NCBI GenBank assembly: GCA_022508445.1
Contig: JAFLVG010000003.1
Span: 1-64,000, forward strand
Direction of reading: 5' to 3'
Source: Clostridiales bacterium
Lineage (GTDB): Bacteria; Bacillota; Clostridia; Christensenellales; Pumilibacteraceae
Length of the DNA stretch: 64,000 nt
Shown here: positions 30,518 to 46,113 of the stretch, piece by piece
Layout: the number at the start of each line of letters is the position of its first letter
Numbering within the stretch: position 1 is the stretch's first letter
Made by a program: the position numbers and the translations under genes
Notes under the pieces: generated by a model
The model's input: the letters and a program-made list of their open reading frames with translations, nothing else
What the model was told of the DNA's origin: nothing
Database searches by the model: none

Positions 30518-31246
30518 ATGAAAATTCGGGTTATGGTGTGTGACGACAACGAGGAGTTCGTGGCTAACGTAAGAACGCATTTCGCGGTGTCGGATAAGAT
30601 AGAGCTTGTGGAAACGGCGGCTAACGGCAAGGAGGCTTTGGAGCGGCTTGATACCGCCAGACCGGACGTTTTGCTCTTGGATCTTGTTATGCCCACGCTC
30701 GACGGATTCTCCGTGCTCGAACGTGTCAATAAGGGCAGTATGAAGATTATCGTCGTGTCCGCGCTGTCGCAGGACGCGTTCATATCGAAAGCCATGAATC
30801 TCGGCGCGGATTTTTACATGATGAAACCCGTTTCGTTCGGCGTGCTGGACGAGCGCATTATAGAGGCGGTAAACAGCAAGCGTCCCACCGCAAAGAACCG
30901 CTCCATGGACGAAAAAATAAGCAATATTTTTATTACGGTCGGCATTCCGGCGCACATCAAGGGCTATCAGTATTTGCGCGAGGCGATCAAGATGACAATA
31001 GACAGTCCCGAGATAATCAATTCCATAACGAAAAAGTTGTACCCCGAGGTTGCCGAGCATTTCAACACGAGTCCGAGCAAAGTCGAGCGCGCGATACGCC
31101 ACGCGATTGAAGTCGCTTGGAACAGAGGCAAGATAGAAAACATTAACACTCTGTTCGGCGTGCGCGTTTACAATCATAACGAAAAACCGACAAACGGAGA
31201 GTTTATTGCGCTTGTCGCCGATAAAATGCTGCTCGAAAGCGTTTAA
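30518..31246 (+). CDS. spo0A: Stage 0 sporulation response regulator Spo0A
   Basis: The master switch for entry into sporulation. At 242 aa it has a receiver domain (acidic pair in VMVCDDNEEF, phosphoacceptor Asp55 in VLLLDLVMPTLDGF, Lys in YMMKPVS) and the Spo0A-specific C-terminal DNA-binding domain (ITVGIPAHIKGYQYLREAI, recognition helix SPSKVERAIRHAIEVAW, then GKIENINTLFG). The N-terminal domain is complete and the C-terminal domain distinguishes it from other regulators. Usually it follows spoIVB; here spoIVB is absent from the upstream side. Confidence 0.97.
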   Translation: MKIRVMVCDDNEEFVANVRTHFAVSDKIELVETAANGKEALERLDTARPDVLLLDLVMPTLDGFSVLERVNKGSMKIIVVSALSQDAFISKAMNLGADFYMMKPVSFGVLDERIIEAVNSKRPTAKNRSMDEKISNIFITVGIPAHIKGYQYLREAIKMTIDSPEIINSITKKLYPEVAEHFNTSPSKVERAIRHAIEVAWNRGKIENINTLFGVRVYNHNEKPTNGEFIALVADKMLLESV

Positions 31247-31248
31247 AA

Positions 31249-31272
31249 AAGACAATATACAGGTCTTGTCTT
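31249..31272. terminator. Weak hairpin between convergent spo0A and the next gene
   Basis: AAGACAA (31249-31255) pairs with TTGTCTT (31266-31272), with a 10-nt loop, followed by CTTATAAATTT. A short stem; probably a shared terminator. Confidence 0.5.
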
Positions 31273-31282
31273 CTTATAAATT

Positions 31283-32125
31283 TCAATCTTTATAATCAAA
31301 GATTTCGGTGTATTCGGCGGTACAGTTCGTGCCGCCGAATTTATTTATGCGGAATTTTTCACCGGAAACGATTTTAACCGCGCGCTTCCCGTCGAACGTC
31401 AGCGTGAACTGTACGCTCTCGTATATGGGATATTCATTTCCGCCTACCGTCGTCTTCACCTCGTTGCGCGCGTAAGCGGTGGCGCGCCTTGCGTCGAGCG
31501 TGTAGCGAAAAGTGTCTTCGCTCAATTGTTCCGCGCTTATTATCGCTCCGTCGAGCTCATATTTGACAATGCCCGTTAAAGGCCGACCGTACGCCGCCAC
31601 ATAGCCGTCTTTATCGTACTCCCTGCCCGATTTGTAAACAAACTTCTTGTTTTTATAATCGCCGCGCGACGCGGTGTATTTCCCGTCAACGCACTCGCGC
31701 TTTATACCGACCTTTACGATTGCGGAAACGCTTTCCTCGACATCACAGAAATTATCGCCGCTTACCGTTCTTTTGCCTTTTATTTTTTGAGTGTACGGGA
31801 TGCCGAAAACCTTTGCCTTGATCTTCCCGTTCATGCTCGATTCGAAATCGTTGCTCGCCGCATACGCTTTGCAAACGCCGAGTACGCGCATCGCCTCTTG
31901 ATCGACGCCCTGCGCCGTAACATTACCGATACGTGAAGCATACCGTAGTTGCGGCAGGAACGACAATCCTGCGAGCAGAACTATCACCGCGAGCAATATC
32001 AATGACGGAATGACTTTTCTGAGCTTGTTTGCTGTGCTTGTATTCATACGCTTATTATTCCCGATTGCACGGTTTTTAATTTTATTTTCCGCTTTTGTTT
32101 GCGTATTATCGCCTCTTTTGTCCAT
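31283..32125 (-). CDS. Membrane-anchored secreted protein of unknown function
   Basis: A 280-aa protein with a basic N-terminus, one helix at about 36-57 (VIPSLILLAVIVLLAGLSFL) and an extracellular domain of about 220 residues rich in beta-strand patterns, with cysteines only in VLGVCKAYA, DNFCDVEE, KRECVDG and GTNCTAEY. No family is recognised. A second ATG at 32047 (MNTSTANKLRKV) could be the true start; neither has a clear ribosome site. It lies between spo0A (convergent) and the collagen-like gene's 3' part. Confidence 0.65.
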   Translation of the reverse strand: MDKRGDNTQTKAENKIKNRAIGNNKRMNTSTANKLRKVIPSLILLAVIVLLAGLSFLPQLRYASRIGNVTAQGVDQEAMRVLGVCKAYAASNDFESSMNGKIKAKVFGIPYTQKIKGKRTVSGDNFCDVEESVSAIVKVGIKRECVDGKYTASRGDYKNKKFVYKSGREYDKDGYVAAYGRPLTGIVKYELDGAIISAEQLSEDTFRYTLDARRATAYARNEVKTTVGGNEYPIYESVQFTLTFDGKRAVKIVSGEKFRINKFGGTNCTAEYTEIFDYKD

Positions 32126-32189
32126 CGAAGAAATCCGAACAAGCCGCGCCGCAATATAACCCCAACCTTAATTATTCATCACTACACAA

Positions 32190-32220
32190 AAGGATTCCGA
32201 CCGTGAAGATCGGAATCCTT
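32190..32220 (-). terminator. Terminator of the collagen-like gene
   Basis: AAGGATTCCGA (32190-32200) pairs perfectly with TCGGAATCCTT (32210-32220); the minus strand continues TTTGTGT. It marks the true 3' end of the split collagen-like gene. Confidence 0.85.
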
Positions 32221-32253
32221 CGCTCTATTGATGGCGGCAACTCACTTACGCGA

Positions 32254-33096
32254 TTACGACAGCAAGCCTGCGGTACGAAGATTGGCAAGCAACGTGTTAA
32301 ATTGCGTGACGACATCGGCGACGCTTGTTGCGTCCGCAACCGCGGCGGCAGGAGTTACTGTTCCGGCAGGACCTGTCGCACCCGTAGCGCCCGTAGCGCC
32401 CGTAGCACCGGTCACGCCCTGTATGCCCTGCGGTCCCGTTGCACCTGTTGCGCCCGTAGCACCTGTTGCGCCCGTAGCGCCCGTCACACCTTGTATACCT
32501 TGAATACCCTGTATGCCCTGCGGACCTGTCGCACCGGTCGCTCCCGTTACGCCTTGAATACCCTGTATGCCCTGCGGGCCTGTGACGCCCGTTGCACCCG
32601 TAGCACCCGTCACACCGGTTACGCCTTGAATACCCTGTATGCCCTGCGGGCCTGTGACACCCGTTGCGCCTGTGACACCCGTTGCACCCGTTGCGCCAGT
32701 TGCACCGGTCACGCCTTGAATACCCTGTATGCCTTGCGGGCCTGTTGCGCCGGTCGCTCCCGTTACGCCTTGAATTCCCTGTATGCCCTGCGGTCCTGTG
32801 ACACCCGTTGCACCCGTTGCACCGGTTGCACCGGTCACGCCTTGTATGCCTTGCACACCCTGTATGCCCTGCGGTCCCGTTGCGCCCGTTACGCCAGTAG
32901 GACCGGTAGCACCCGTTACGCCGTCTGCGCCGTCTGCGCCGGTCGCTCCCGTAGCACCTGTTGCGCCCGTTGCGCCTTGCACGCCCTGTATGCCTTGAAC
33001 GCCTTGCGGACCTGTCGCACCGGTAGGACCTTGCAGACCGGGAACGCCTTGAATGCCCTGCACGCCTTGCGGTCCCGTTGCACCCGTTGACGTCAC
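32254..33096 (-). CDS. Collagen-like protein, 3' part of an interrupted gene
   Basis: About 240 residues of uninterrupted Gly-X-Y triplets dominated by [19 protein letters not shown] and [10 protein letters not shown] units, then a 35-residue non-collagen tail ([20 protein letters not shown]...) that resembles the trimerising tails of spore-surface collagen-like proteins. There is no credible own start: the frame is open upstream only to a TAA at about 33136, with a GTG at 33096 and no ribosome site, signal or promoter. The missing N-terminus matches the fragment at 43785-44072. The break coincides with the end repeat of the 10.76-kb element. Confidence 0.85.
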
Positions 33097-33109
33097 GACG
33101 AATGGGAAA
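33091..33109. repeat. Left attachment junction and end repeat
   Basis: CGT (33091-33093, the shared trinucleotide) is followed by the end repeat ACGACGAATGGGAAA (33095-33109). Everything to the left is collagen-like coding sequence, everything to the right is element. Confidence 0.8.
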
Positions 33110-33135
33110 CTTTTTGCCCCGATCTTTTGTGGATT

Positions 33136-34746
33136 TTATCGCAAGTCACTTGACAGGTTGTAGTAAATGTGAATCTCACGTCCGCCGTCTGTTTCATTTC
33201 TTTTTCCTACCGTTATGAAATTTACAAGCTGTAAACACATTTCTCTTGTAAGGCTCTCGCAGTCGCAGTACGCCTTTAATTTATATATGTATTCGCAAGC
33301 GTCACGATTGTTGTGAGCATTTTCAAGCCGACTTATCAGCTCTGTGATTTTCTCTTCCGTGGCCGCCCTTTCTTTTTGATATTTATCGCAAAGGCTTGAA
33401 TACAAGCTCTCATCCATGCCGTTCAGCACCCTATCCTCAAACGCCGCTTGCAACAGCTTGTCTATATCGGCAAGACGAGCGGTATGCTCTTTGAGCTGTT
33501 TTTCGACCGAACATCCGCTCTTTGACTCGCCGACCGCCCTTTCTTTTTCAAAACGCTCAATTGCCTTTTGCTCGTCTATGACGACGGAGCCTTTCATCGC
33601 CTTGATGTCGTTTAAAACAACGCTCTCTATCTCTCTTTCGGTTATGCTGTGCGACGAGCAATATTTTTTTCCGAGGTCTATATAAGTGCGGCAATAATAA
33701 CCGCATCTGACGGCGTTCGAATCTTTATATGTTTTTCCGGCGGTTTTGAGTTTAAGCTTGCCGCCGCAATCGGCGCACACAAGCAATCCCGACAGCGCGT
33801 GGATATTGCCCGACTTATCCGCCTTTCCGCGCGACACCGTCCTATTCATATCCTGCACCTTGTCCCACAGCTCGCGGCTTATAATAGGTTGGTGTGCGTT
33901 TTCCTTTATTATCCGCTCGCTCGCCGGAATGTTTATCTTTTTGCGGTTTTTATAAGAAACGCCGGTGGTTTTGTGCTGAACGGTAACGCCTATGTAGACG
34001 GGGTTGGACAGAATATCCGCAACCGTGGATGGCCACCAATACGGTTTGCACGGTCTGTTCCATTTCTCGCCGTTTAACCGTGTAAAATAGCTTGTTGGGT
34101 TTTGCACTCCGTCGTCAGTCAAAATGCGCGCTATTGTCCGCGTCGAATTGCCTTCCGCGCGCAGTTCGAAAATTCGTCTTACCACCTCTGCGGCAGGCTC
34201 GTCGATGACCGCCGTTCGGTTATCGTCCTTTCCGACCTTGTAGCCGTAAGAATAATTCCAGCTCGTATATTTGCCCGCTCGCTGTTTCGCCTCCAACACC
34301 GCCCGAATCTTCTTACTCGTGTTTGCCGCATGCCACTCGTTAAACACGTTCATTATGGGCATCATATCCATTGCGGTGCTATTTCTATCCGCGGTGTCCA
34401 CGTTGTCGTTGATTGCGATAAACCTAATGCCGTATGCCGGAAAAATATAGTCTATATACTGCCCGACCTGTATGTAGTTCCTCCCGAAACGCGACAGGTC
34501 TTTTACTATAATCGTGTCGATTTTCCCGGACTGCGCGTCGAGAAGAAGTCTTTTAATCTCGGGACGGTCGAAGCTCGTTCCCGAATAGCCGTCGTCCACA
34601 TACTCGTCTATTACCGTTCCGCCGCGTTCAGTTGCGTACTTACGCAAAATAATGCGCTGATTTTCAATTGACACGGACTCTGTCGTCTTTTCATCGTCGC
34701 GAGATAGGCGCATGTACAAGCCCGTTTTTCCCAGAGCTTCAATCAT
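33136..34746 (-). CDS. Large serine recombinase (TnpX/TndX type)
   Basis: A 536-aa site-specific recombinase. The N-terminal resolvase domain starts TGLYMRLSRDDEKTTES with the catalytic Ser at residue 15, and has VDDGYSGTSFDRPE and IIVKDLSRFGRNY. The recombinase domain follows from about 165 (YGYKVGKDDN), then a zinc ribbon (LLVCADCGGKLKLK plus CGYYC), a coiled coil and a C-terminal DUF4368-type tail ending in IHIYYNLSSDLR. All catalytic regions look intact. It lies 27 bp from the left end of the element and its start overlaps tnpW by 8 bp. It probably catalyses integration into, and excision from, the collagen-like gene. Confidence 0.95.
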   Translation of the reverse strand: MIEALGKTGLYMRLSRDDEKTTESVSIENQRIILRKYATERGGTVIDEYVDDGYSGTSFDRPEIKRLLLDAQSGKIDTIIVKDLSRFGRNYIQVGQYIDYIFPAYGIRFIAINDNVDTADRNSTAMDMMPIMNVFNEWHAANTSKKIRAVLEAKQRAGKYTSWNYSYGYKVGKDDNRTAVIDEPAAEVVRRIFELRAEGNSTRTIARILTDDGVQNPTSYFTRLNGEKWNRPCKPYWWPSTVADILSNPVYIGVTVQHKTTGVSYKNRKKINIPASERIIKENAHQPIISRELWDKVQDMNRTVSRGKADKSGNIHALSGLLVCADCGGKLKLKTAGKTYKDSNAVRCGYYCRTYIDLGKKYCSSHSITEREIESVVLNDIKAMKGSVVIDEQKAIERFEKERAVGESKSGCSVEKQLKEHTARLADIDKLLQAAFEDRVLNGMDESLYSSLCDKYQKERAATEEKITELISRLENAHNNRDACEYIYKLKAYCDCESLTREMCLQLVNFITVGKRNETDGGREIHIYYNLSSDLR

Positions 34747-34945
34747 CCGTGAACCCCATTTCCCTGTTTGCGCGCGCGACTGCGAGTTCGGAAATCACGC
34801 GGTCTACATTCTTGTCGCCCACAAAATGCCGCGTGACGGTATACTTCTTTCCGTCGATAACAAGCGTGACTTGTTCCGTCGGATAAGCCGCGTACTGCTT
34901 GATCAGTTGTTCGGGGTTTTTATTCGTTTGACCGCACATATCCAT
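34739..34945 (-). CDS. tnpW: TnpW-like transposon-encoded protein
   Basis: A 68-aa protein: VTLVIDGKKYTVTRHFVGDK is the TnpW-type core seen in Tn4451-like elements of Clostridia, followed by a charged helix (RVISELAVARANREMGF). Its function in those elements is not established. It overlaps the recombinase start by 8 bp, so the two are translationally coupled. A small accessory or directionality role is possible but unproven. Confidence 0.8.
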   Translation of the reverse strand: MDMCGQTNKNPEQLIKQYAAYPTEQVTLVIDGKKYTVTRHFVGDKNVDRVISELAVARANREMGFTDD

Positions 34946-35030
34946 TCAATTTATATGAATTCAATATATGAAAATTTCCGCAAAACCGAGAATAGAACAA
35001 TTGTGTTTCGTTCGCCGCCGACGTTTAATA

Positions 35031-35059
35031 TTGACATAAGCTTGTTCGTGTGATATAAT
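35031..35059 (+). promoter_or_regulatory. Perfect-consensus promoter of the cargo operon
   Basis: TTGACA (35031-35036), 17 bp, TATAAT (35054-35059), 34 bases ahead of the first cargo gene. Both hexamers and the spacing are ideal, so cargo expression is probably strong and vegetative. Confidence 0.9.
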
Positions 35060-35092
35060 TTTTATATTCATCGTTCGGATTGGGAGGAGCGC

Positions 35093-36091
35093 TTGGTCAA
35101 ATCGCAAAAAATACGCCTATATTACGGTATATTTCTTACGGTCATGACCGTGGCTGTGGGCATCGCCTTTATTGTTGCGGTGTCGCAGGTTTATTACGGA
35201 GGTTTAGCGGAAAACCCCGACTATCCGTTTGAACTAGCGCGAATCAAGAAGCACATCCTCGTGCCGTTTATACTTTTGCTGTGCTATATCGGAGCGGTAA
35301 TCGGCGGAGTCGTTCTTTCCGTGCTCTATCCCATCGCCCAAAGGAAACCCGACTACAAGGATAACGGCAAGACGCTCAAAAAGCTCAAAGTGCGCATACC
35401 GGCTTCGGGCGGAGAAGACTTTACTGCGGCAAGCAACAGTGTATCCAAATACGAAAAGATCAGAATGTGCGTTTGGGGCGTCGCCTTGGCGGTGTTCCTT
35501 GCGGCAGGCATTTCCATTTTCGTGTACTCATTCAACGCCGCAAACTACCACGCCGACGCGCTCAAAAAGGACATACTCGGACTTGTGAAAAACGTTTTGA
35601 GCTGGACGGCGGCAGGGCTTGTCGTGGGAATAGCCGCCGTGATTGCCGATGAAATTTTGATAAAGCGTGAAATCGCCCAAGCGAAAACGGCAATCGTAAA
35701 TGGCGATCGGGATTCGCTCCGCACTCAAAAAGAAATAACCGAAAAGGCTGTGATTGCAGCGTGCGTTTCGGCCGGCGTTGTCGTTCTTGTCGCGCTTTTG
35801 GCATACGGGCTGGCACCCGTCATTATAAAAAGCGCTTTGAACGCAACTCAAACAGTCATATATGTTCTCGTATTTGTTTTTGCCGCTATCGCCGTCGCTT
35901 GCTTTGCGGTATACCAAACGGTAAAGAGCTTCATTTCCGAAAAGGTGAACGGCATACTCATCCTCGCTTCGCGCATAGGCGTGGGCATTATTGCGGTAAC
36001 GTTTATAATAATCGGCGCGATAAACGGCGGCGCGAACGACGTGCTGATTAAAGCAATCAATATCTGCACGGAATGTATAGGGTTGGGGTGA
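35093..36091 (+). CDS. Seven-helix membrane protein of unknown function (element cargo)
   Basis: A 332-aa protein starting at TTG 35093 behind GGGAGGAG. Hydrophobic segments lie at about 8-32, 51-78, 124-147, 165-187, 217-245, 252-276 and 286-311. Hydrophilic loops are lysine-rich; no cysteine motif or transporter signature is recognised. It ends 4 bp before the polyferredoxin gene, so it is probably a membrane partner, perhaps delivering electrons or assembling the complex (inference). Confidence 0.7.
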   Translation: MVKSQKIRLYYGIFLTVMTVAVGIAFIVAVSQVYYGGLAENPDYPFELARIKKHILVPFILLLCYIGAVIGGVVLSVLYPIAQRKPDYKDNGKTLKKLKVRIPASGGEDFTAASNSVSKYEKIRMCVWGVALAVFLAAGISIFVYSFNAANYHADALKKDILGLVKNVLSWTAAGLVVGIAAVIADEILIKREIAQAKTAIVNGDRDSLRTQKEITEKAVIAACVSAGVVVLVALLAYGLAPVIIKSALNATQTVIYVLVFVFAAIAVACFAVYQTVKSFISEKVNGILILASRIGVGIIAVTFIIIGAINGGANDVLIKAINICTECIGLG

Positions 36092-36095
36092 GCAA

Positions 36096-37832
36096 ATGAT
36101 CAAGTTTTTCCGTTCGATTAAAAACTGGTTTGCACGCCACATACCGACAAAACGCAGAATCATTCAGCTTTACGTCGCCTTGCTCTACAACGCCAACTTA
36201 AAGGGATTTATCAACGGCGAAATTTCCCAAAGCAAGACCAAGTACGTCTGCGTGCCGGGCATGAACTGCTACTCCTGCCCCGGCGCTGTGGGCGCTTGTC
36301 CGCTGGGCTCGCTTCAAAACGCATTCGCCCAATCTGGAACGCGCACGCCTTATTACATACTCGGCATTATAGGACTGTTCGGGCTTATTTTCGCGAGGAC
36401 GGTGTGCGGCTTCCTCTGCCCCGTCGGACTGTGTCAGGAGCTGCTTCACAAGATCCCGTCGCCCAAAATCAAAAAGAGCCGCGTCACGCGCGCTCTGTCG
36501 TATCTGAAATATGTAATCCTTGCGGTATTGGTGCTTGCCGTGCCGCTTTTGTACGGCTTGCAGGGAATTGCGGTCCCGGCGTTTTGTAAATACATCTGTC
36601 CGGCAGGAACATTCGAGGGCGGCTTGGGACTTCTGTTGAACCCTGCAAACCAATCGGGAAGCAGAAATCTACTCAACATGCTTGGCGCGATATTTACTTG
36701 GAAGTTCGCCGTGCTGTTTGCGTTTATCGTCTTGTGCGTGTTCATGTACCGCCCGTTCTGCCGATTCTTCTGTCCGCTCGGCGCGATATACGGCTTTTTC
36801 AACAAGATAGCCTTCCTCGGCGTAAAGGTGGATAAAATCAAGTGTACGGACTGCGGCCTGTGCGTTAAGCACTGCCAAATGGACGTTAAGCACGTGGGCG
36901 ACCACGAGTGCATACATTGCGGCAGGTGCATAAGCGTTTGCCCCGTCAAAGCAATAAGCTGGAAAGGCTCCGGCCTGTTCGATAAAAAAGACGATGAAGA
37001 GAAAAAGCAACCTGAGGCGCCCGTTCAAGAACTTCCAGTTGTCGAAGCGGCGGCAACGACAGCGACTCAAAATAACAAGCATACGAACACGAATAATATT
37101 GCGCCCGTTTTCGCTCCCAATCTCGAAGTGACGGCAGTGCCGGAAGTATCGAGCGTTATGCCTACGTCGGGCGAAAGCGACTCAAACGAAATAGAGTTCC
37201 GCTCGGGCGCGCCGCCGCCCAAGGCAAGGCGCAAGCACGCCAAGGCGTTTTGGTCACAGCTTGCGGCAAGTTGCGCCGCGCTGATTGTATTCGCAAGCGC
37301 TATACTGTACTTCAACGTATTTGAAAAATCGCAAGGCGTTGCCGATATGTACATCGGAAGCGAATGTCCGGACTTCACATTGAAAAAGTACGGCGAGGAC
37401 GCTTGGGGCGATTACGAGCTTTTGAGCGACACGTTCACATTGAGCGAGCAGCTCGGAAGCGTGGTCGTTATCAACTTCTGGGCGACTTGGTGCGGACCGT
37501 GCGTGGCGGAGCTTCCCCACTTCAACCGAGTGGCGAATGAACTCCCCGAGGCGAAGATAGTCGCCATACACGGAAGCTCGACAGAGGATGTCGCGCGGTT
37601 CATAACCAAAGCGACAGACACGAAGGAAAGCTGGCGCGACTACAACATAACCTTCTTGCAGGACGAAATAGAGGGTAGTGTATGCAAAACCTTCAAAGCG
37701 CTCGGCGGTAACTCCGCATGGCCGATGACGCTGATCGTAGACAAAGAAGGCAAAATAACGTTTGTAAGGCAAGGCAGTTTGAGCTACGCAAAGCTCAAAG
37801 AAGAGGTTCAAAAAGCGCTTGACAAAGAATAA
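36096..37832 (+). CDS. NapH/CcoG-like polyferredoxin fused to a TlpA thioredoxin domain
   Basis: A 578-aa fusion. Residues 1-235: membrane polyferredoxin with several CP motifs (MNCYSCPGAVGACPLGS, CGFLCPVGLCQ, CKYICPAGT, CRFFCPLGAIYG) and helices between them. Residues 250-282: two cytoplasmic-side 4Fe-4S motifs CTDCGLCVKHC and CIHCGRCISVC. A Pro/Thr-rich linker and a helix at about 385-408 follow, then a TlpA-type thioredoxin domain with WCGPC at 465-469. The layout would carry electrons from cytoplasmic ferredoxin clusters through the membrane to an extracellular dithiol. Fusion of the two modules in one chain is notable. Strong terminator after it. Confidence 0.88.
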   Translation: MIKFFRSIKNWFARHIPTKRRIIQLYVALLYNANLKGFINGEISQSKTKYVCVPGMNCYSCPGAVGACPLGSLQNAFAQSGTRTPYYILGIIGLFGLIFARTVCGFLCPVGLCQELLHKIPSPKIKKSRVTRALSYLKYVILAVLVLAVPLLYGLQGIAVPAFCKYICPAGTFEGGLGLLLNPANQSGSRNLLNMLGAIFTWKFAVLFAFIVLCVFMYRPFCRFFCPLGAIYGFFNKIAFLGVKVDKIKCTDCGLCVKHCQMDVKHVGDHECIHCGRCISVCPVKAISWKGSGLFDKKDDEEKKQPEAPVQELPVVEAAATTATQNNKHTNTNNIAPVFAPNLEVTAVPEVSSVMPTSGESDSNEIEFRSGAPPPKARRKHAKAFWSQLAASCAALIVFASAILYFNVFEKSQGVADMYIGSECPDFTLKKYGEDAWGDYELLSDTFTLSEQLGSVVVINFWATWCGPCVAELPHFNRVANELPEAKIVAIHGSSTEDVARFITKATDTKESWRDYNITFLQDEIEGSVCKTFKALGGNSAWPMTLIVDKEGKITFVRQGSLSYAKLKEEVQKALDKE

Positions 37833-37844
37833 TATCACAACATA

Positions 37845-37873
37845 AAAAGGAGAGGTAAAATACCTCTCCTTTT
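37845..37873. terminator. Bidirectional terminator inside the element
   Basis: A perfect 13-bp stem (37845-37857 with 37861-37873, loop AAA), then GTTTTGT. It separates the plus-strand cargo pair from the minus-strand lipoprotein pair. Confidence 0.9.
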
Positions 37874-37890
37874 GTTTTGTAAGCTTTTCA

Positions 37891-40470
37891 TTAAATGGGG
37901 GTTGCCGAGATTGTGAACTCTACGGGACCCGCAGTCCAATTCGTACTTCCCACCTCGATTGTTATGACGGTACCTGCTTTAAGCGCAATGCCGCCTGTGA
38001 GGTCGTCCTCATAATCGTTTAGCCATTTCATTTGTTCGCCGCTTTCGTCGGTATAAGTGACAACAAGCGTAGTTGTTGTCGATCTTGCGAAATACAGCGT
38101 CATATCCTCGGTCACTTCAAAGGTGTAGTATATGGATTTTACTCCAAACCTTCCCGACTGGGTTGTGTCATTAATTGTCCCGAGCTGTGTGATTGTTTTG
38201 GGATTTTGCTCGGAGCCTAACGCGTATGCCATCGCCATGTTTACGGTGTACTCCGCCGCCTCGCCGCTCTTCGATGAAAATTCAAGAATGATCGATCCCG
38301 ACGCGGCAATCGTGCAAGTAAAGCCCGTTTCGTCGGAAGTAACCGTCGTCTTGTTATTCTCTTGCTCTTCGCCGTAGGCGTACCAAACAAGCTTCACGTC
38401 GTTCGAAGTCGAGGTGAACGTATATTCCGCATCGTCCTCCGCCATGAAGTTATAATAAACCGTTTTGCTTGCGGCAACGGTGACGTCGAATTCACCAACC
38501 TCTTCGATCAAATAAGGGTTATCCGCTGTTCCGAGCGGTGCGTTGTATATTCCGAACTTGTATTCGCCCGCGCCGGATTCTGTGGTTATCTTAATGAGAA
38601 GCTCGGTGTCGGTAGGCACGGACAAGCCGCCCTCCAATTGGGCAAACGTCAGTTCGTGCGATTGCTCCGAGCTGTCCGTATACTGCACGGAAACGATGAC
38701 TGTGTTTTCACCGACGTAGAAGTACAGCGTTTCGTCAATTTCGCTTACGGTATAGCGGTAGTAAAGGGGTTTCACGCTGCCCGACTCTTCCGTCGTTTCG
38801 CCGCTGTTCCAACCGGCTTCCGCAATAAACGGCTTTTCGATCGAGCCGTCGGGCTCGTTGCTCTCTTCCTCTACGGTGATTGTATAAGTTTCGGCAGCAC
38901 CGTTCTTGGTCGAGAATACAAAGTAATACTGCGTATACCAATCGGCTACAATCGTGCACTCGAAGTCGGTGTCGGTGGACTCTGCCGTGTCGCCGTCGGT
39001 CGGATCGTAAGAGACATACCACTTGAACGCGACATTGGTCGAGGCCGACTTAATAGTAACGGTAACGTGAATGTTTCTTTCGAACAAGTAATACACTTTT
39101 CCGCCGGCGGGAACCTTGACGTCAAAGCTCGACTCGCCTTCTGCTAACTCAATGGGGTTTTCGATAACTCCCGAAGGGGCATAATAACCGCACCACACGA
39201 TCCATTCCTTGCCCTTGGGCAGTTGAATGCCGTACATCTCCATCTGATTCAAGAATCCGGCATTCTGCATGAAAACGTTGAAGAATTCGATAAGCTCATC
39301 GGTTATGGGGTAGCAACCGTCATCGTTTGCGGCATTTGCATAAGCGCTGACAAGCGGATAATAGTTGTAGGAATAGGTTTTTCCGTCGCCGAACGTGAAC
39401 GACTGACCTTGTTCGTATATTTGCATAAAGCCCGCGTCGAGAAAGCGCGGAGGCTGTTCGTCGTTGCCGAGAGTGGCGACCAACGTATATCCGTTTTCGT
39501 CGCCGACATGGTAGTAGCCGTTCGCGTCCTTAACGAAATCAAACGGACCGTCGTAGATATCGATGTTTATAAACTTACCTTCTTGGTTGGCATAAGCGTC
39601 AAGCGCATGTGCGGGCTCTTTGTCCACCGTTTCGGGACCTTGTTGCTCTTCGAGCTTTCCGACGTACTCGAAGCACACCAAAAAGTCCTTATCTACGTCT
39701 GCCGCGTTTTCGAGCGCGACCTCGAAATAGCACATTCCGCCTTCGTTCCTGACAAGTTCTTTGCTAACCTTAAACTCGTACAAGAAGTTTTTATCGGTCG
39801 CCGAAACGTTGTCGTTTTTGTAATCAGCTTCGCCGGGATTGTAAATGGTCGTTTCCACAGAGCCCAAAAGCTGGGTTACGGACGCGTCGACGCTACCCAC
39901 CGAATAGACCTTGTATTTACCTGCCTCTTCGGCTTCGAAAGCAAAGTAAATGTTATCTGTCGAGGTGAATTTGACCTTGTATGCACCTTCTCCGACTTGA
40001 TAGGGATCGAAAATGCTTAAATCAAAAATTGTATCACCCAAGCTCTCGCTGTAACCGCCGGTGCCGGTGCCCGTTGTCGGAACGGTTGACTTTTCGGAAA
40101 GCTTTATCGTTACGCTTTCGTTCTTTTTCATTCTGGTCTCCGGATATGTAAGATATACCGGAAGATTTTGCAGGTGAATCTCTATGAGATTGGCGTTTTT
40201 GTTCTCTACGTGTTTGCCTATTTGAAGAAACACAGTTCCGTTGCTGTCGGTCGGAACGGGTGAATAGCAAGTAGACAAAATGCCGTCGTCTCCGACTTCA
40301 CAGGGTTGCACGAGCGCCGTGGTGTACGGCGAGCCGTCGGGGCCGATAACCGTGACGGTGTAGCCTGCTTTCTTTTCTTCGTCTTCGCCGCATGCGACAA
40401 ACGCAAAGACCGAAAAGACCATTGCCACTGTCAGCAAAACTATCAGCCATTTCTTTGCAAAGTTTTTCAT
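37891..40470 (-). CDS. Large secreted lipoprotein (element cargo)
   Basis: An 859-aa protein with a lipoprotein signal (WLIVLLTVAMVFSVFAFVAC, lipobox Cys then GEDEE). An N-terminal region resembles carboxypeptidase-regulatory or transthyretin-like beta-sandwiches (YTVTVIGPDGSPYTTALVQP). A middle domain (about 290-450) shares the pattern KDANGYYHVGDENGYTLVA with the neighbouring lipoprotein. The C-terminal half holds about four repeats with the form G-x-x-x-NP, then KxVYYxFxA-x-D-x-x-YTFTS (bacterial pre-peptidase-like domains). No catalytic motif is seen. It starts 37 bp after the thioredoxin lipoprotein and is probably its partner. Confidence 0.75.
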   Translation of the reverse strand: MKNFAKKWLIVLLTVAMVFSVFAFVACGEDEEKKAGYTVTVIGPDGSPYTTALVQPCEVGDDGILSTCYSPVPTDSNGTVFLQIGKHVENKNANLIEIHLQNLPVYLTYPETRMKKNESVTIKLSEKSTVPTTGTGTGGYSESLGDTIFDLSIFDPYQVGEGAYKVKFTSTDNIYFAFEAEEAGKYKVYSVGSVDASVTQLLGSVETTIYNPGEADYKNDNVSATDKNFLYEFKVSKELVRNEGGMCYFEVALENAADVDKDFLVCFEYVGKLEEQQGPETVDKEPAHALDAYANQEGKFINIDIYDGPFDFVKDANGYYHVGDENGYTLVATLGNDEQPPRFLDAGFMQIYEQGQSFTFGDGKTYSYNYYPLVSAYANAANDDGCYPITDELIEFFNVFMQNAGFLNQMEMYGIQLPKGKEWIVWCGYYAPSGVIENPIELAEGESSFDVKVPAGGKVYYLFERNIHVTVTIKSASTNVAFKWYVSYDPTDGDTAESTDTDFECTIVADWYTQYYFVFSTKNGAAETYTITVEEESNEPDGSIEKPFIAEAGWNSGETTEESGSVKPLYYRYTVSEIDETLYFYVGENTVIVSVQYTDSSEQSHELTFAQLEGGLSVPTDTELLIKITTESGAGEYKFGIYNAPLGTADNPYLIEEVGEFDVTVAASKTVYYNFMAEDDAEYTFTSTSNDVKLVWYAYGEEQENNKTTVTSDETGFTCTIAASGSIILEFSSKSGEAAEYTVNMAMAYALGSEQNPKTITQLGTINDTTQSGRFGVKSIYYTFEVTEDMTLYFARSTTTTLVVTYTDESGEQMKWLNDYEDDLTGGIALKAGTVITIEVGSTNWTAGPVEFTISATPI

Positions 40471-40507
40471 ACTATATCTCCTTTAAAGGGTAATAACATA
40501 TTAACCG

Positions 40508-43500
40508 TTATCCGGCGTTGGGACCGAAATATTCGAAGTGCGCGCAAAGCCGTATCCAATCTGTGTCGAGCTCGGGGAAGCCGCCGATGCGCTTGCAGAA
40601 CATGTCGAGCGCGTCGCGCAATTCCCATGTAAGCTGTACGCATCCCCTATCGGCATATCCGCGCGACGCAGTGCCTTTAAACGCCTTTGCGTCATTGTAA
40701 TACTTTCTGACAATTATGGTGTAATCTTTATACCGCGATTCGTCAATGCCGTACTTATCGTCGTACTGCCAATAGGTCTGATCGAAGAAATTCAGATATA
40801 AAGCTTTAAGAAGGTCTGCAATTTCGCCGATAGTCGTGCAGGCGGTAAATTTCTCTATAACAAGCTCGTCGTCGATATACACGTTATCGCCGTAGGTATA
40901 ATACAGACTTTCGAAAAGCGCAATCCAATCTTCCGCGGTAAGGCTCGCTCCTTTTATATCTACAAGTCGCGTATCGTCTCCCCAACCGGCTTCGGAAGGT
41001 CTGAGCACTTGCCACATATCCGAGAAAATCTCGCTGAGAGTTTTCAGAATTTTGTTCTTATCGCTGTAAGAAAAGCACAGTTCCAGCGACCCTTGATCGA
41101 AGAAGCGCGCGCCCGTAAGGAAATCCACGTAAATGGGATCGGCGATGTTTGCGATATACTCGCCATTCACCTTCACGTAATTGCCGCTGGCGTCCTTTTT
41201 GGCGTTGTAATACTTGTTATCCACCAGCACGGGCTGAACGTTCATATAGTTTGCAATCGTCGTCATTTTGTCGTCGGTCGTGGTAAAGTAATCACGCGAG
41301 GCGTACTGCCATACATAAGCCTCCGCGCCGAGATACTCCGTCGTAAAGGTATATTCACCAGTGCCGCCTATGTCGGCAAAGCAGGTCGCTATGATGTAGC
41401 GCACTCCCTTTTCCAAATAGTATGTCATTACGAAGTTGAACTCTTCGTTCGCGTTTTCAAGTTGACTATCGGTTTCTACGAGCAGTTTGTCGTCGAATGT
41501 GTAAAGCCACGCCATGGTGTCGCTCAATAATTTGCTCTGCGAACGGAAGCGGTACACGCCGCTCTTTTCGGGTATAAAGACATATTTGATTCCTCGCGGC
41601 ACAATCAGACGATCGAGAAGAACTTTGTTCTTGTACTCGGCAGGGATGTTTTTCAGATCGGAAAACTCACTGTCGTAAGCTGCGACGGTCGGAATTGCGG
41701 TTATGTTGAGCAGTCCGCGAACGGGATTGCGCTCGGGCGTGTTTATGCCCGTGTCGTTTGTGTCGGTGCCGTAGTGGTCGAAATACTTGCAAAGCTCCAA
41801 CCACATTCTGTTGTCAAACACCTTTACGCGCGTTGCGATGAACTTGTTCAAAAGATTTATCAAATCGTCGTTGACGACCGTAAGCCCGTAAAGCTCGGAG
41901 CTGTTTGCCGCCTGTGCCCACAGCGCTATGGCGTCGGTATCGTCCAAAAGAGGGTCGTAATCGGGATCGTCGACGTCCACTGTGTTATAATCGAAGTACC
42001 CGTTGATTGCAAACTCGGATACGCTCCACTCGGTTTTCAATCTGTTGTTAAACTGCGTATAATTCATCAAATCGGCCAAGATGTAAGGGCCGTTGACGGA
42101 ATCCTTGTGGTAAAATCCGTCCGCGTCGCGAACTACGGTGATATATTGCTCGAAGCCGTTGCCGTCATAGCCGCGCGCCGCTTGCCTAGGCATATCCAAG
42201 GACGGAATGTCTATTTCGGGTATTGATATAAGGCGCATGTTCTTTATGCGCACGGTGTCCGCACCCTCGCTGTACATGTCGTCCTTGTAGTACATCAAGC
42301 CCAAAACGTAATCGCCCGGCTCATCGGCCACGATCGCGTAGCAAGGCTGCCATTTGCCCCACTGCTCGGTGCCCGTGTATTCATAGACGAGGGTATTGTT
42401 CACTATGACATAGAAGTAATCGGCCAAGTTCTCGCACGACCACTGCAAATCGAAGAGAAGCACGACCTTGCCGTTTGCGCTGTCGATGTCGCTTTCCGGT
42501 ATCGTAACCTCGGTGTAAATGGTCGCAAACGAGTAATTGACTCCGTGGTTTGCGGGATAAATATACTTTTCGTCGCCCGTTCCGCCGACAAGCCACGGCC
42601 AAGAATATTCGGCGTCCTTTGCCTGCGTTTCGGGGTAGTACGAGCCGTTAAAGCCGACGCCGTTTATCGCATCTTCTATCTCCGACGAAGCAGGCTGACT
42701 CACTGTGGGTTTTTCGCGCTCCTTCTCCTCGCCTTCCGACGGGTCGGAAGGCCCGACGCCCGAACCGCCTTCCTGAACGTAGTCATCCGAAGTGTACTTT
42801 GCAAAAAGAGAAGCAAAGGTGGCTTTGTCCATACTTCCGACGTGCATATATGCAATAACGCCGTAGCGGTCGACAATCACGGTTACGGGAATGGACGAAA
42901 GCGCAAAGTGCAACGCCATCTCGTTGCGGTCGGTGTCGTCCATGGACAACGGAAAAGTCAAGCTGAAAGTGTTTCCGGCCCCGTCGATGTATTCCTCCGC
43001 CCTGAGTTCTCTTACCTGCGAAAGTCTGTTTTCGCCCATGACGGGTACGTTTATGCCGAAAACTTCCGCGTACTCCTTGTATTGTCTGTACGCAAGTTCA
43101 AGCTCGGGCATTTCGTTCATGCACGGAACGCAGTTGACGTTCCAGAAATTGAGAAGCACCATTCTCTTCGACCGCAACACGTCGGACAGCGTGTATTGGA
43201 CGTCCTTGGTTTTGTCGGTGGAGTCGGTTATGGTAAAGTCATACATAACGTCACCGTGTCTGTACACTTTGCCGTCCGGAATCTTTTCCTGTATTACCGT
43301 CGACGTCGCCAAAATAACGAGCGAAAAATCCTTGGCAGATGTCTTATATCTGTTTGTTTCCACAAGGGTATATCCGAGCGGAAGGTTGGTCACGATTATG
43401 TCGTACTCGCCCTTATTCGCTTTGAATGTGAACTTACCTTTACTATCCGTTTGACCGGCGGCGACCGTGGATTCGGTCGAGGTGGCAGTGACCGAAACGT

Positions 43501-43654
43501 CGGGCAGTCCGAGTCCGCCCATACTCGTAACGTAAATCGAATAAGTTACTTTCCCGTCCTCATTTTCAGAGCCGCAAGCCGTGGCAAGCACAGAACACAG
43601 CAAAAGCGCGACGGTCAATATGGTGAGTACAACTTTTCGCACTCTATTGCTCAT
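40508..43654 (-). CDS. Lipoprotein with TlpA-type thioredoxin domain (element cargo)
   Basis: A 1048-aa protein. Start at ATG 43654 behind GAGGAGGT; the longer frame to 43750 runs through the promoter. Lipobox VLATAC with Cys27. Residues 32-100: carboxypeptidase-regulatory-like beta-sandwich (GLPDVSVTATSTESTVAAGQ). Residues about 125-330: TlpA/AhpC-like domain with redox motif CVPC at 175-178 (NFWNVNCVPCMNEMPEL) and the cis-Pro region SSIPVTVIVDRYG. After an acidic linker come large extracellular domains of unknown type, including one shared with the next gene. It may receive electrons from the polyferredoxin-thioredoxin fusion (inference). Confidence 0.82.
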   Translation of the reverse strand: MSNRVRKVVLTILTVALLLCSVLATACGSENEDGKVTYSIYVTSMGGLGLPDVSVTATSTESTVAAGQTDSKGKFTFKANKGEYDIIVTNLPLGYTLVETNRYKTSAKDFSLVILATSTVIQEKIPDGKVYRHGDVMYDFTITDSTDKTKDVQYTLSDVLRSKRMVLLNFWNVNCVPCMNEMPELELAYRQYKEYAEVFGINVPVMGENRLSQVRELRAEEYIDGAGNTFSLTFPLSMDDTDRNEMALHFALSSIPVTVIVDRYGVIAYMHVGSMDKATFASLFAKYTSDDYVQEGGSGVGPSDPSEGEEKEREKPTVSQPASSEIEDAINGVGFNGSYYPETQAKDAEYSWPWLVGGTGDEKYIYPANHGVNYSFATIYTEVTIPESDIDSANGKVVLLFDLQWSCENLADYFYVIVNNTLVYEYTGTEQWGKWQPCYAIVADEPGDYVLGLMYYKDDMYSEGADTVRIKNMRLISIPEIDIPSLDMPRQAARGYDGNGFEQYITVVRDADGFYHKDSVNGPYILADLMNYTQFNNRLKTEWSVSEFAINGYFDYNTVDVDDPDYDPLLDDTDAIALWAQAANSSELYGLTVVNDDLINLLNKFIATRVKVFDNRMWLELCKYFDHYGTDTNDTGINTPERNPVRGLLNITAIPTVAAYDSEFSDLKNIPAEYKNKVLLDRLIVPRGIKYVFIPEKSGVYRFRSQSKLLSDTMAWLYTFDDKLLVETDSQLENANEEFNFVMTYYLEKGVRYIIATCFADIGGTGEYTFTTEYLGAEAYVWQYASRDYFTTTDDKMTTIANYMNVQPVLVDNKYYNAKKDASGNYVKVNGEYIANIADPIYVDFLTGARFFDQGSLELCFSYSDKNKILKTLSEIFSDMWQVLRPSEAGWGDDTRLVDIKGASLTAEDWIALFESLYYTYGDNVYIDDELVIEKFTACTTIGEIADLLKALYLNFFDQTYWQYDDKYGIDESRYKDYTIIVRKYYNDAKAFKGTASRGYADRGCVQLTWELRDALDMFCKRIGGFPELDTDWIRLCAHFEYFGPNAG

Positions 43655-43721
43655 TTTGACGTTTACCTCCTCGTCGTTTTCTGAATAAGCCAAGGGCACC
43701 TGCAATTTTGTATATTGTACT

Positions 43722-43750
43722 ATTTTACATGATTTTAACTCGTTTGTCAA
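43722..43750 (-). promoter_or_regulatory. Promoter of the lipoprotein pair
   Basis: Minus strand: TTGACA (43745-43750), 17 bp, TAAAAT (43722-43727), close to the right end of the element. Confidence 0.85.
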
Positions 43751-43784
43751 TTATATTAATAGGTTAGCGATAATCAGTCGCAGA

Positions 43785-44072
43785 TTAAAGCCGCATAAAA
43801 ATAAAGACGGGACTCTTGCCCGTCACATCAAGTTCACAATCTTTCCCATTTGTCGTGGGCTCGGTAGCGCCCGTGACACCGTTCATTCCGGGATATCCGC
43901 GAGGGCCGATGGGGCCGGGCGCGCCGGTCGGGCCGGTAGGACCTACGCAGCACTGAGTCGGACGAGGCGGATACGGGCAGCTCGGCTTATCGCCGTCGCA
44001 CCCGCACTCACAATCACGATCGTAGTCGTCGCAATCGTTGTCGCACTGTCTGTTGAAGAAATTGAAAAACAT
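43785..44072 (-). CDS. Collagen-like protein, 5' part of an interrupted gene
   Basis: A 95-codon frame with a proper start (AAAGGAGGTCAAT then ATG 44072). Residues 1-42 are Asp/Cys-rich with eight cysteines (10, 14, 21, 23, 25, 32, 41, 42); Gly-X-Y begins at VGPTGPTGAPGPIGPRGYPG and runs to GVTGATEPT at residue 73. From there the sequence is element DNA (TNGKDCELDVTG...) ending at a chance stop. Fused at the shared ACG codon to the 3' part it would give about 351 residues. It lies 44 bp after a GT2 glycosyltransferase and probably shares its transcript. Confidence 0.85.
   Translation of the reverse strand: MFFNFFNRQCDNDCDDYDRDCECGCDGDKPSCPYPPRPTQCCVGPTGPTGAPGPIGPRGYPGMNGVTGATEPTTNGKDCELDVTGKSPVFIFMRL
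43806..43824 (-). terminator. Terminator just inside the right end of the element
   Basis: Minus strand: GACGGG (43824-43819), 7-nt loop, CCCGTC (43811-43806), then TTTATTTTT. It would stop transcripts entering from the collagen-like 5' fragment about 30 bp inside the element. Confidence 0.75.
43842..43857. repeat. Right end repeat and attachment junction
   Basis: TTTCCCATTTGTCGT (43842-43856) is the inverted copy, 14 of 15 bases, of the left end repeat at 33095-33109. Its last three bases CGT are the trinucleotide shared with the left junction. Confidence 0.8.
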
Positions 44073-44116
44073 ATTGACCTCCTTTTGTGTTTGTTTTTTC
44101 TAATAGTAGCCGTAGC

Positions 44117-45220
44117 TCAATCGCGCTGTTTTCTTGTTTGCGGAAGCTTGAAGCCCAAGCCCTTAAAATACGCGTCGTTGGCAATCACGCTCGGATGATC
44201 GGGGCGGAGCTTTCTCGCTCTTAAATGATAGCGGAACGCTTTTTTTGCATCGCCTTTTCTATCGTAGCAAACGGTCAACCACACGAGCGGAACAAATCCG
44301 TAATACTCGCCTTTTATAAACGCGCCGCCGTCGAGGTCGGGTTTAGAACGCACCGCGCACTCATACCAGAACGTCGCACTGTCATAATCGTTTCGGGCCA
44401 AAAACAGCGAGCCTATTTCGCAACACGCCTCGCCGTTCGGCGGACCGTACTCCAAACACCGCAGTGCCGAAGAGAGCGCGCCGCCTGCATTACCGGTCAT
44501 TCCGACACACCGCGAAAGCATCAAGCACGCGTCGGCCTTGTTTACGTCGAACCCGTTGGGCATATCGAGAAATGCGGAGAATTCCGCGGCGGCGTCCGTG
44601 TAATAACCGTTATAGTAAAGTTCGCGTGCGTAGTAATACCTTTCACGCGGTTCAAACGTGACGCCTTCCGTGCGCATACGCCTGTAAATGTCGAGATTGC
44701 GCGTTGTATTTGCGCGCCCTTCCGGTTTTTTGTGTAAGATATGGAAAGGAAGCCTTTCGACCTTTCCGTGCGGAACGACCGCCTCATGCACACGACCGCG
44801 CCAAAACAGCTGTGAGCTTTTGCGCATAATCCGCTCACGGTAGTAAGAAAAAGTCGGCTTGCCGCGCTCATCGATAGCGGTAACATACGGAAGCATGTAA
44901 ACGTCCGTCGTTCCGTCCGCGATTCGTTTGAGCTTGGTAATATAGCTTGCGGTGCGGACGGGCACAATGTCGTCCGCATCCAGCCACATCCAATATTCGG
45001 ACTCGACCTTTTCAAGCGCAAAATTTCGCGCCTTGGAAAAGTCGTCGCACCACTCGAAGTCGTACACCTTGTCGGTATAGCGCCGCACGATGTCTTTGGT
45101 GCCGTCCGTCGAGCCTGTATCGACAACGACTATTTCGTCGGCAAACCCTGCCGCGCTGTTAAGCGCACGGGCAATCACCGCGCTTTCGTTTTTGACAATC
45201 ATACACAGTCCGATAGTCAT
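44117..45220 (-). CDS. GT2 glycosyltransferase with TPR-like C-terminus (SgtA-like)
   Basis: A 367-aa enzyme starting at ATG 45220 (GGAGAATG upstream). GT-A domain: MTIGLCMIVKNESAVIARAL, VVDTGSTDGTKDIV, DFSKARNFALEKV and the metal site WMWLDADDIV; then TPR-like helices (YYYARELYYNGYYTDAAAEF, ALRCLEYGPPNGEACCEIGS). Family knowledge: GT2/TPR enzymes sit next to collagen-like spore or surface proteins and glycosylate them, as SgtA does for BclA3 in C. difficile. Here it directly precedes the collagen-like gene, so that is the likely substrate. Confidence 0.88.
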   Translation of the reverse strand: MTIGLCMIVKNESAVIARALNSAAGFADEIVVVDTGSTDGTKDIVRRYTDKVYDFEWCDDFSKARNFALEKVESEYWMWLDADDIVPVRTASYITKLKRIADGTTDVYMLPYVTAIDERGKPTFSYYRERIMRKSSQLFWRGRVHEAVVPHGKVERLPFHILHKKPEGRANTTRNLDIYRRMRTEGVTFEPRERYYYARELYYNGYYTDAAAEFSAFLDMPNGFDVNKADACLMLSRCVGMTGNAGGALSSALRCLEYGPPNGEACCEIGSLFLARNDYDSATFWYECAVRSKPDLDGGAFIKGEYYGFVPLVWLTVCYDRKGDAKKAFRYHLRARKLRPDHPSVIANDAYFKGLGFKLPQTRKQRD

Positions 45221-45246
45221 ATCATTCTCCGTAATTCCGTCTATTC

Positions 45247-45275
45247 CATGATATGTGAAAAACCCCGATAAAGTG
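45247..45275 (-). promoter_or_regulatory. Possible sigma-K-like promoter of the GT2-collagen operon
   Basis: Minus strand: CAC (45275-45273) and, 17 bp later, CATATCATG (45255-45247), eight of nine positions of the sigma-K -10 (CATA-N3-TA). The match is short and could be chance, but no sigma-A promoter is visible here. Confidence 0.35.
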
Positions 45276-45305
45276 ACGTAATACTTCATTAAATTATTTC
45301 GTTTA

Positions 45306-45334
45306 GTCTATTGAGTAAAATCGTCGCATACAAT
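45306..45334 (+). promoter_or_regulatory. Sigma-E-like promoter of yabPQ
   Basis: CATACAAT (45327-45334) is an exact sigma-E -10; 14 bp upstream GTCTATT matches five of seven positions of the -35. The expected start point falls at or next to the yabP ATG, so the mRNA may be nearly leaderless. yabP is sigma-E controlled in B. subtilis. Confidence 0.55.
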
Positions 45335-45340
45335 GACGGT

Positions 45341-45625
45341 ATGAAAGATATCAAACCGATAGCCCCGCCCTGCAAGTTCACGTCGCACGCGTTCAGCATG
45401 ACCGACCGCAAAAAAGCGACGCTCACCGGCGTCGCCAAAGTCGACAGCGCGAGCGAAACGGAAATCATCCTGTCCACCTGCCTCGGTCGGCTCGTCATAA
45501 ACGGCTCGTCGTTGCAAATCGTCAAGTTCGACGACAGCGACGGCAACCTCGCACTGACGGGAAACATAGACGCGGTCAAGTACGCACAGGCCAAACAGTC
45601 GCTTTTGAAGCGTATTTTCAAGTGA
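45341..45625 (+). CDS. yabP: Sporulation protein YabP
   Basis: A 94-aa YabP/YqfC-family protein: SHAFSMTDRKKATLTGVAKV, then ETEIILSTCLGRLVINGSSL and LALTGNIDAVKYAQ, the typical all-beta fold. It is needed in the mother cell for spore cortex or coat assembly. Start at ATG 45341 (a TTG frame continues upstream through the promoter). It overlaps yabQ by four bases. Good evidence, with spo0A, that this organism forms endospores. Confidence 0.88.
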   Translation: MKDIKPIAPPCKFTSHAFSMTDRKKATLTGVAKVDSASETEIILSTCLGRLVINGSSLQIVKFDDSDGNLALTGNIDAVKYAQAKQSLLKRIFK

Positions 45626-45951
45626 ACGAGCTGTACTCGTTTTTATTCTGTATCGCGCTCGGCTTTGCCGCAAGGCTGATTTTTCTTTTGGCGAACGCGC
45701 TGGCAAAGCGCACCGACCTTTTGCCCGTGACCTTTATTCTGGACGCTTTGACCGTGCTGATTGTCGGCGGCGGCTTCACCGCGTTTGTAATTCTGTCGGG
45801 TGCAGTTCTCGCCCCGTACATGTTCGCCGCTCTTCTTTCCGGCTACTTGTTCACTTATTGGATAACAAAGCGCAAAGCGTCAAAATCCGCCGATAAAAAC
45901 AAAAATGCAAAACCAAATCGCAGAAAACATCCGAAACGTAATATCGGGTAA
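45622..45951 (+). CDS. yabQ: Spore cortex protein YabQ
   Basis: A 109-aa membrane protein starting at GTG 45622 inside the yabP stop. Helices at about 3-25, 38-60 and 66-84, then a very basic tail (RKASKSADKNKNAKPNRRKH). Size, topology and coupling to yabP match YabQ, a mother-cell protein required for cortex formation. The usual downstream divIC is not present; a kinase gene with its own promoter follows. Confidence 0.8.
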   Translation: MNELYSFLFCIALGFAARLIFLLANALAKRTDLLPVTFILDALTVLIVGGGFTAFVILSGAVLAPYMFAALLSGYLFTYWITKRKASKSADKNKNAKPNRRKHPKRNIG

Positions 45952-45966
45952 GCACCCGAATTTTTT
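45944..45966 (+). terminator. Terminator of yabPQ
   Basis: TCGGGT/ACCCGA stem with loop AAGC overlaps the yabQ stop and is followed by TTTTTT. Confidence 0.7.
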
Positions 45967-46045
45967 ATTTGCGACGTTACGCACTTATACTCGGTGATAA
46001 ATCGAACTAATTTTCCGCAAATTGTATTTGTTGGGGTTGCACTGC

Positions 46046-46074: not shown

Positions 46075-46113
46075 ATTTCTAACTAATAAGAAAACTCATG
46101 ATGCGGTAAATTC

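Follow-up and report, generated by a model that had tools for sequence, protein, structure and literature searches.

The DNA analysed here (the window) is a 64,000-nucleotide stretch, positions 1 to 64,000 of the forward strand of contig JAFLVG010000003.1 (assembly GCA_022508445.1), from an uncultured gut Clostridiales bacterium of the Pumilibacteraceae. We found that a collagen-like gene in this window is split by an element, 10,778 bp from core to core, that encodes a large serine recombinase (LSR), that joining the two halves at a shared AC dinucleotide gives one in-register reading frame, and that related recombinases forming a single clade lie at collagen-like genes in many species. The anatomy of the split gene, its attachment sites, its in-register reconstitution and the target shared across the clade are firm as conclusions from sequence, from which the differing cargo of these islands can also be read. 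As an explanation that we consider moderately probable, we propose that the islands are removed in the mother cell during sporulation, rebuilding a spore-surface collagen.

The split gene and its joint

The collagen-like gene lies on the minus strand and starts at 44072 behind a strong ribosome site. A first-pass annotation had described, on this strand, a Cys-rich start with a ribosome site leading into a Gly-X-Y fragment, an LSR, and a start-less open Gly-X-Y fragment with a tail (32254-33096), and domain and profile matches bore this description out. The 3' half exceeded the curated PF01391 cut-off (Table 1), and the 5' half alone, with its Cys-rich start followed by Gly-X-Y, scored 23.5 bits, under the cut-off of 27.2. 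The uninterrupted gene that the annotation had proposed to look for in related genomes was found within the genus: the gene start was matched in 17 of the 20 genus genomes searched (own included), and one open frame, with the same N-terminus running into the repeats, was present at loci L003, L005 and L009-L014 (L and G are our labels for loci and genomes), in several of them through the same tail. By this comparison, both halves correspond to a single continuous gene that is unbroken in genus relatives. The assembly containing the window comprises 1.78 Mb in 45 contigs. A second collagen gene was considered in it and set aside, and we treated the gene as single-copy there, because the two other PF01391 stretches (C12:65477-66001) lie on the strand opposite a Pro-rich open reading frame (ORF).

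The joint was located by comparison with 13 distinct orthologue sequences, chosen by their conserved N-terminal stretch. Joining the halves at an ACG common to both junctions, as first proposed, gives 351 codons; we rejected this joint because a five-codon EPTST break, absent from all 13 orthologues, remains and the register is broken. The crossover instead falls at the AC of a Thr codon, flanked by near-palindromic arms (CCC-N16-AC-N16-GGG), and joining the halves there gives 346 codons with Gly-X-Y unbroken and with length and register as in the 13 orthologues. The earlier claim that precise excision would restore the gene is thus upheld in its substance, although not at the joint proposed. 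The inverted ends that had been noted are also present, and can be identified as recombinase half-sites, the attL and attR arms being alike at 17 of 22 positions. As the right end of the element reads CCC-N16-AC and the left end AC-N16-GGG, a circular form would carry a near-palindromic attP around AC.

Recombinase relatives at collagen-like repeats

A scan with the LSR gave 276 relatives, the best 80 of which were kept (79 loci), and collagen repeats lay just downstream of many of the scanned LSRs. In a tree of 81 rows (71 of the 79 loci, the window and nine LSRs of the genus), all 37 rows found at collagen-like genes fell within one clade of 41 rows with support of 100/100. Because 37 of the 41 clade LSRs sit at such genes, chance is not a sensible explanation. 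A collagen-like site was found for none of the 29 LSRs of the sister group, in which two scan matches (L147 and L156) were judged to be chance because they hold no real Gly-X-Y run. Two clade members were counted through more distant sites: L099 through a right-hand site 20.6 kb beyond the LSR, its left end not being found, and L118 through a site 2.8 kb beyond its LSR. We also considered a phage origin, and rejected it on a scan of viral contigs that gave only five LSR relatives, the best at 35%.

Both ends were in hand for 16 elements (those of the genus genome G012 on two contigs). The two cores were identical in all 16, AC in 15 and GT in the one that is inserted in reverse, and the 22-base arms agreed at 10 to 18 positions. 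The rejoined host codons gave unbroken Gly-X-Y in every case, a register that is partly due to selection, because the scan required in-phase Gly codons on each side; this selection does not account for the identical cores. As host motif, these elements share a Gly codon, (G/C)CN, AC (or GT), N, GG. In the reverse-inserted island (L187:591 and L188:1043) the GT core lies in a Val codon. Just inside the elements, where the window has a terminator-like hairpin, a relaxed terminator search was positive in 9 of 16 elements compared with 18 of 160 control positions, and a strict search in 2 of 16 compared with 8 of 96.

We read 36 downstream halves, 29 of which are open to a stop, with five leaving the contig and two cut short (the first of L112, and L114); the ends were judged by eye to be tails of collagen proteins. 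The orthologous gene of G012 is interrupted at a later repeat; an LSR end, with 49% identity over the 122 residues seen, precedes the 3' half, which lies on another contig. One gene of G040 is cut by two tandem elements. The second of these (L114:5718 to L195, minus strand 4898; 14.6 kb) has both attachment sites and no LSR among its ORFs, and is perhaps non-autonomous. Near a contig end in G016 (C40, L202), a short remnant of an LSR of this type (73% identity over 86 residues) lies beside an opposite-strand piece.

Cargo was compared in 15 elements of between 3.6 and 38.2 kb. An all-against-all ORF comparison gave the LSR as the gene in common (14 of 15), and the other pairs between elements were a few ABC-permease-, LacI- and surface-protein-like ones. 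The cargo families included an M60 peptidase, an NPCBM/F5-8 surface protein, a group II intron maturase-type protein and a subtilase; CTP synthase, an ammonium transporter with P-II, glutamate synthase and an ABC permease; and aldehyde ferredoxin oxidoreductase with MoaA and MoeA, a LacI regulator and an alpha-amylase-type enzyme. No phage or conjugation genes were recognised by eye in two cargo listings, no library scan having been aimed at them. The island at L092 (3459-7218) carries a Gabija pair, GajA and GajB.

A small reading frame, its promoter and the sporulation setting

Most of the LSR genes follow an ORF for a protein of about 40 to 75 aa that has a conserved RHF motif; in the window this ORF overlaps the LSR start. 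Six of the 43 loci scanned for it had no such ORF, and L109 gave a wrong frame. In many elements this ORF apparently starts at an ACG codon, which in 23 loci stands 5 to 11 bases after a Shine-Dalgarno-like stretch, as judged by a permissive test; in 10 of these 23 (three near copies included) there is no in-frame ATG, GTG or TTG between the upstream stop and the core. The window copy has an in-frame ATG upstream, at 34945; ATG, GTG or TTG lies near the place of the ACG in L092, L103, L104, L108, L111 and L123, and ACC in L115 and L116. Caution over an ACG start is advised by the codon usage of 18 such ORFs, in which ACG makes up 18 of 55 other Thr codons. If the ACG start is conserved, as it appears to be, it would be one of the rare non-AUG starts; a literature search on ACG starts gave nothing of use. 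Sixteen members of the small ORF family had no Pfam or NCBIfam match below E 0.019, and PDB sequence matches, to ribosomal proteins, were no better than E 0.0076. The protein was modelled as alpha-beta-beta-alpha (pLDDT 85), and a fold search with this model gave no match at E 0.001. We infer that it may act as the recombination directionality factor (RDF) of these elements.

Judging from sequence patterns, many of the small ORFs have a mother-cell-type CATA box upstream, frequently accompanied by a sigma-K-like AC. TCATA was present in 27 of 36 regions (5.4 expected) and the sigma-K-like pattern (A/C)AC-n16-18-CATA in 17 of 36 (1.25 expected), and a TTGACA-like promoter was not enriched. We dropped near copies (L096, L097, L107, L108, L115 and L116) and also L126, and compared the remaining 29 rows with 241 mechanically found ORFs of at least 150 aa from the same loci. 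The sigma-K-like pattern preceded 14 of 29 small ORFs and 8 of 241 others (p = 1.8e-10, a value that is too small because the patterns were written after seeing some of the sequences and related elements are not independent), and a sigma-E-like form preceded 3 of 29 and 8 of 241 (p = 0.1). Among 40 close LSR loci, which include some not seen at collagen genes and omit those whose LSR begins at a contig edge, the sigma-K-like pattern was found in 20 (4.2 expected), compared with 2 of 29 more distant LSRs (4.0 expected). CATA boxes were also present upstream of several glycosyltransferase-collagen operons, and the genus's own spoIVA often has two of them about 20 bases apart.

The neighbours and hosts of the split genes point to sporulation. 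The window's gene lies between spo0A and a yabP gene accompanied by a weakly matching yabQ-like gene (Table 1), and a GT2 glycosyltransferase gene precedes it. A GT2 homologue was found upstream in 10 of 15 loci, on the same strand in eight and the opposite strand in two; three of the five loci without one have less than 1 kb of sequence upstream. SpoIVA was present in 17 of the 20 genus genomes, and in 40 other clade hosts its match was strong in 34, weak or partial in four and absent in two. Ten hosts, including all those without a strong SpoIVA match, had SigK/SigE-type proteins in 10 of 10 cases and Spo0A in 9 of 10. The best sigma-K match in the window's own genome reached 295.4 bits against a cut-off of 298.65. 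A sigma-K-like gene at a contig end of this genome (L221, G000:C43:1-1100) adjoins an RNase P RNA, a position that probably accounts for the break. The interrupted collagen-like genes are, in our interpretation, probably spore-surface genes.

In the model that we favor, the Gly-(Ala/Pro)-Thr-Gly repeats in collagen-like genes are the special target of one LSR island family, whose circular form would integrate at an AC core within a Thr codon. The island would stay in place during growth, leaving the gene split. A mother-cell sigma factor (sigma-K, perhaps sigma-E) would then, late in sporulation, drive the small candidate directionality gene and the LSR, and the island would be cut out at its two cores, rebuilding the collagen-like gene in frame, with the spore's chromosome keeping the island. 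The promoter pattern, the neighbourhood and the precedent of known systems suggest the mother-cell timing.

Several observations weigh against this model. The developmental excision that the first-pass annotation had suggested gains indirect support from the yabP, yabQ-like and spo0A neighbours, the GT2 gene before the collagen gene and the sigma-K-like pattern of the clade, but the window's own copy has the -10 box alone, without an AC -35, and no excised junction was found in its own assembly and no circular junction in viral contigs. Four clade members were not seen at a collagen gene (L109, at a contig end; L093, the sister of L099; L110; and L119), and 6 of the 40 clade hosts lacked a strong SpoIVA match. 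Nine other LSRs of the genus, with no collagen repeats within 400 bases downstream, served as a control; the loose sigma-K pattern was found in five (1.3 expected), three of these being near-identical rows within the LSR's own start and two lying inside an upstream ORF, and TCATA was found in one of nine. The same genome also has an LSR island in spoVAD, described below. In B. subtilis spoVAD acts in the forespore, and mother-cell excision would therefore not explain that island.

Finally, cargo and insertion point vary between species, as fits plain mobile elements, and the islands must therefore be regarded as mobile first. They may be nothing else: collagen repeats would be abundant conserved targets, excision would be rare and serve transfer, and the split gene would be a tolerated loss. 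The independent insertions in one orthologue, the tandem insertion with its LSR-less element and the lack of any excised form agree with this alternative as well. We nevertheless think it unlikely, though the most serious of the rivals, since 29 readable downstream halves remain open to their own stop, CATA-type promoters are enriched before the small ORF, and hosts and neighbourhood point to sporulation. Phase variation, in which growing cells would switch a surface collagen stochastically and without regard to sporulation, would suit the reversible anatomy, with attL, attR and LSR all present. It appears improbable, as integration by LSRs is directional without an RDF, promoter type and neighbourhood again point to sporulation, and no mixed assembly was seen. 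That the halves are two separate genes with a merely accidental resemblance, as the stop that closes the 5' half at 95 codons might suggest, is very improbable and largely refuted by the orthologues, which carry one continuous gene with the same ends.

Were mother-cell excision correct, it could be taken further. We tentatively suggest that an LSR clade across gut Clostridia has spore-surface collagen genes as its dedicated home, with any repeat serving as attB and any metabolic or defence cassette riding along, and that a sigma-K-timed LSR and an ACG-started directionality factor clear the island solely from the doomed mother cell, which would amount to programmed somatic DNA elimination. With excision so timed, islands could enter the gene almost free of cost and their cargo would be kept in the spore, and the elements would form a natural series in which developmental DNA excision could be tested. 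The LSRs' own target is short and defined and can be tested easily.

Element content, known systems and further islands

Between the two halves lie the LSR, the small ORF and four cargo genes (Table 1). Same-order homologues of this redox cargo (35093-43684) are present at 42-68% identity in G005 and G007 (L167 and L168), in stretches that gave no match to the LSR or collagen queries. Rfam gave no match in window positions 31000-46500.

Table 1. Features of the split gene, the inserted element and their neighbours in the window
Feature	Position	Strand	Remarks
spo0A	30518..31246	+	
Collagen-like gene, 3' half with conserved tail	32254..33087	-	PF01391 E 6.9e-41, 138 bits; tail common to relatives
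attR: AC core 33086-33087 and element right arm 33088-33109	33086..33109	-	
Inserted element between the two AC cores	33088..43863	-	
LSR, 536 aa; Resolvase, Recombinase and zinc-ribbon domains	33136..34746	-	
Small ORF read from conserved ACG codon; candidate RDF	34739..34927	-	ACG at 34925-34927
CATATATT, -10-like box upstream of small ORF	34961..34970	-	no AC -35 at expected spacing
Cargo: membrane protein without family	35093..36091	+	
Cargo: membrane 4Fe-4S protein, thioredoxin-like domain	36096..37832	+	
Cargo: large lipoprotein-like protein, no Pfam family at 0.001	37891..40470	-	
Cargo: lipoprotein-like protein, AhpC-TSA/Redoxin domain	40508..43684	-	homologues in G005, G007
Collagen-like gene, 5' half and element-coded tail to stop	43785..44072	-	host part 43864-44072; orthologues
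Terminator-like hairpin just inside element, GACGGG..CCCGTC, T-rich tail	43806..43824	-	
attL: AC core 43864-43865 and element left arm 43842-43863	43842..43865	-	
GT2 glycosyltransferase with TPR-like match, upstream of collagen gene	44117..45289	-	
yabP (over cut-off) and yabQ-like gene (weak, E 0.051)	45311..45951	+	

The catalytic domain of the LSR had the TnpX N-terminal domain as its best PDB match (E 2e-30), which makes it a TnpX-type LSR. Elements of the Tn4451 type have a GA core dinucleotide and a mobilisation gene; in contrast, the islands have AC in 15 of 16 cases and GT in one, and inspection of the window's element by eye revealed no mobilisation gene. The window LSR is also distantly related to an SprA-type integrase of solved structure (YokA).

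The window shows two of the features that characterise sporulation-gene-intervening elements: a split frame that precise excision restores, and an element that encodes a site-specific recombinase and is bounded by attL and attR. In C. difficile skin, which has 19 genes and splits sigK, the LSR CD1231 has a sigma-A promoter and the 72 aa RDF CD1234 is under sigma-E and mother-cell control (PMC5025042). The islands resemble skin in that an LSR element splits a gene (a sporulation gene in skin) and a small RDF, here a candidate, accompanies it. They differ in having a repeat motif as target in many species, where skin has sigK alone, and in the small ORF directly upstream of the LSR with its sigma-K-like pattern. 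The gin element in gerE of Bacillus cereus ATCC10987 is 28.6 kb long with three recombinases, and has a serine recombinase and an RDF and no phage genes (PMC5595907). It is likewise a gene-intervening element; it differs from the islands in its size, its three recombinases and its target, one small gene and not a repeat. Excision of the SP-beta prophage of Bacillus subtilis by its LSR rebuilds the spore-envelope gene spsM (PMC4191935); SP-beta is a phage, whereas the island LSRs are without close kin in viral contigs.

The pairing of a GT2 gene with a collagen gene recalls sgtA-bclA3 of C. difficile, described in PMC7157674 as a glycosyltransferase with a collagen-like exosporium glycoprotein; bclA1-3 are under positive sigma-K control (PMC3789822). 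By their locus numbers sgtA and bclA3 are adjacent, the likeness is one of arrangement, and the available text reports no interruption in C. difficile. Our literature search, made in a limited library, turned up no description of LSR islands in collagen-like genes; in PMC3158075 the mention of collagen concerns a collagen-binding-type protein. Each of the sporulation-interrupting elements for which we found a description occupies a single gene (sigK, spsM, gerE or yabG). In the present case a single recombinase clade targets, across many species, a codon-phased repeat motif that belongs to a class of genes, and its cargo is exchangeable.

A second, unrelated LSR island of about 28.5 kb, with an LSR merely 35% identical, splits spoVAD in the window's own genome (G000:C12). 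The spoVAD halves lie at 210261-211049 and 239501-239911 (L227, L229 and L048). The 3' half covers profile positions 201-329 of 329 and has the LSR directly before it; about 28.5 kb upstream of it is the 5' half (profile 3-205), which adjoins spoVAC and a sigma factor gene, and the genes between the halves are, by eye, carbohydrate genes. Inspection by eye also placed an LSR from this branch ahead of a spoVAD-like 3' fragment and a spoVAE-like gene in both G005 and G007. Together with the collagen islands, if these are indeed excised in the mother cell, this island would make sporulation genes a general landing niche in the genus. The same contig holds a further mobile region (L182, G000:C12:62000-81000) with a run of adjacent serine recombinase ORFs.

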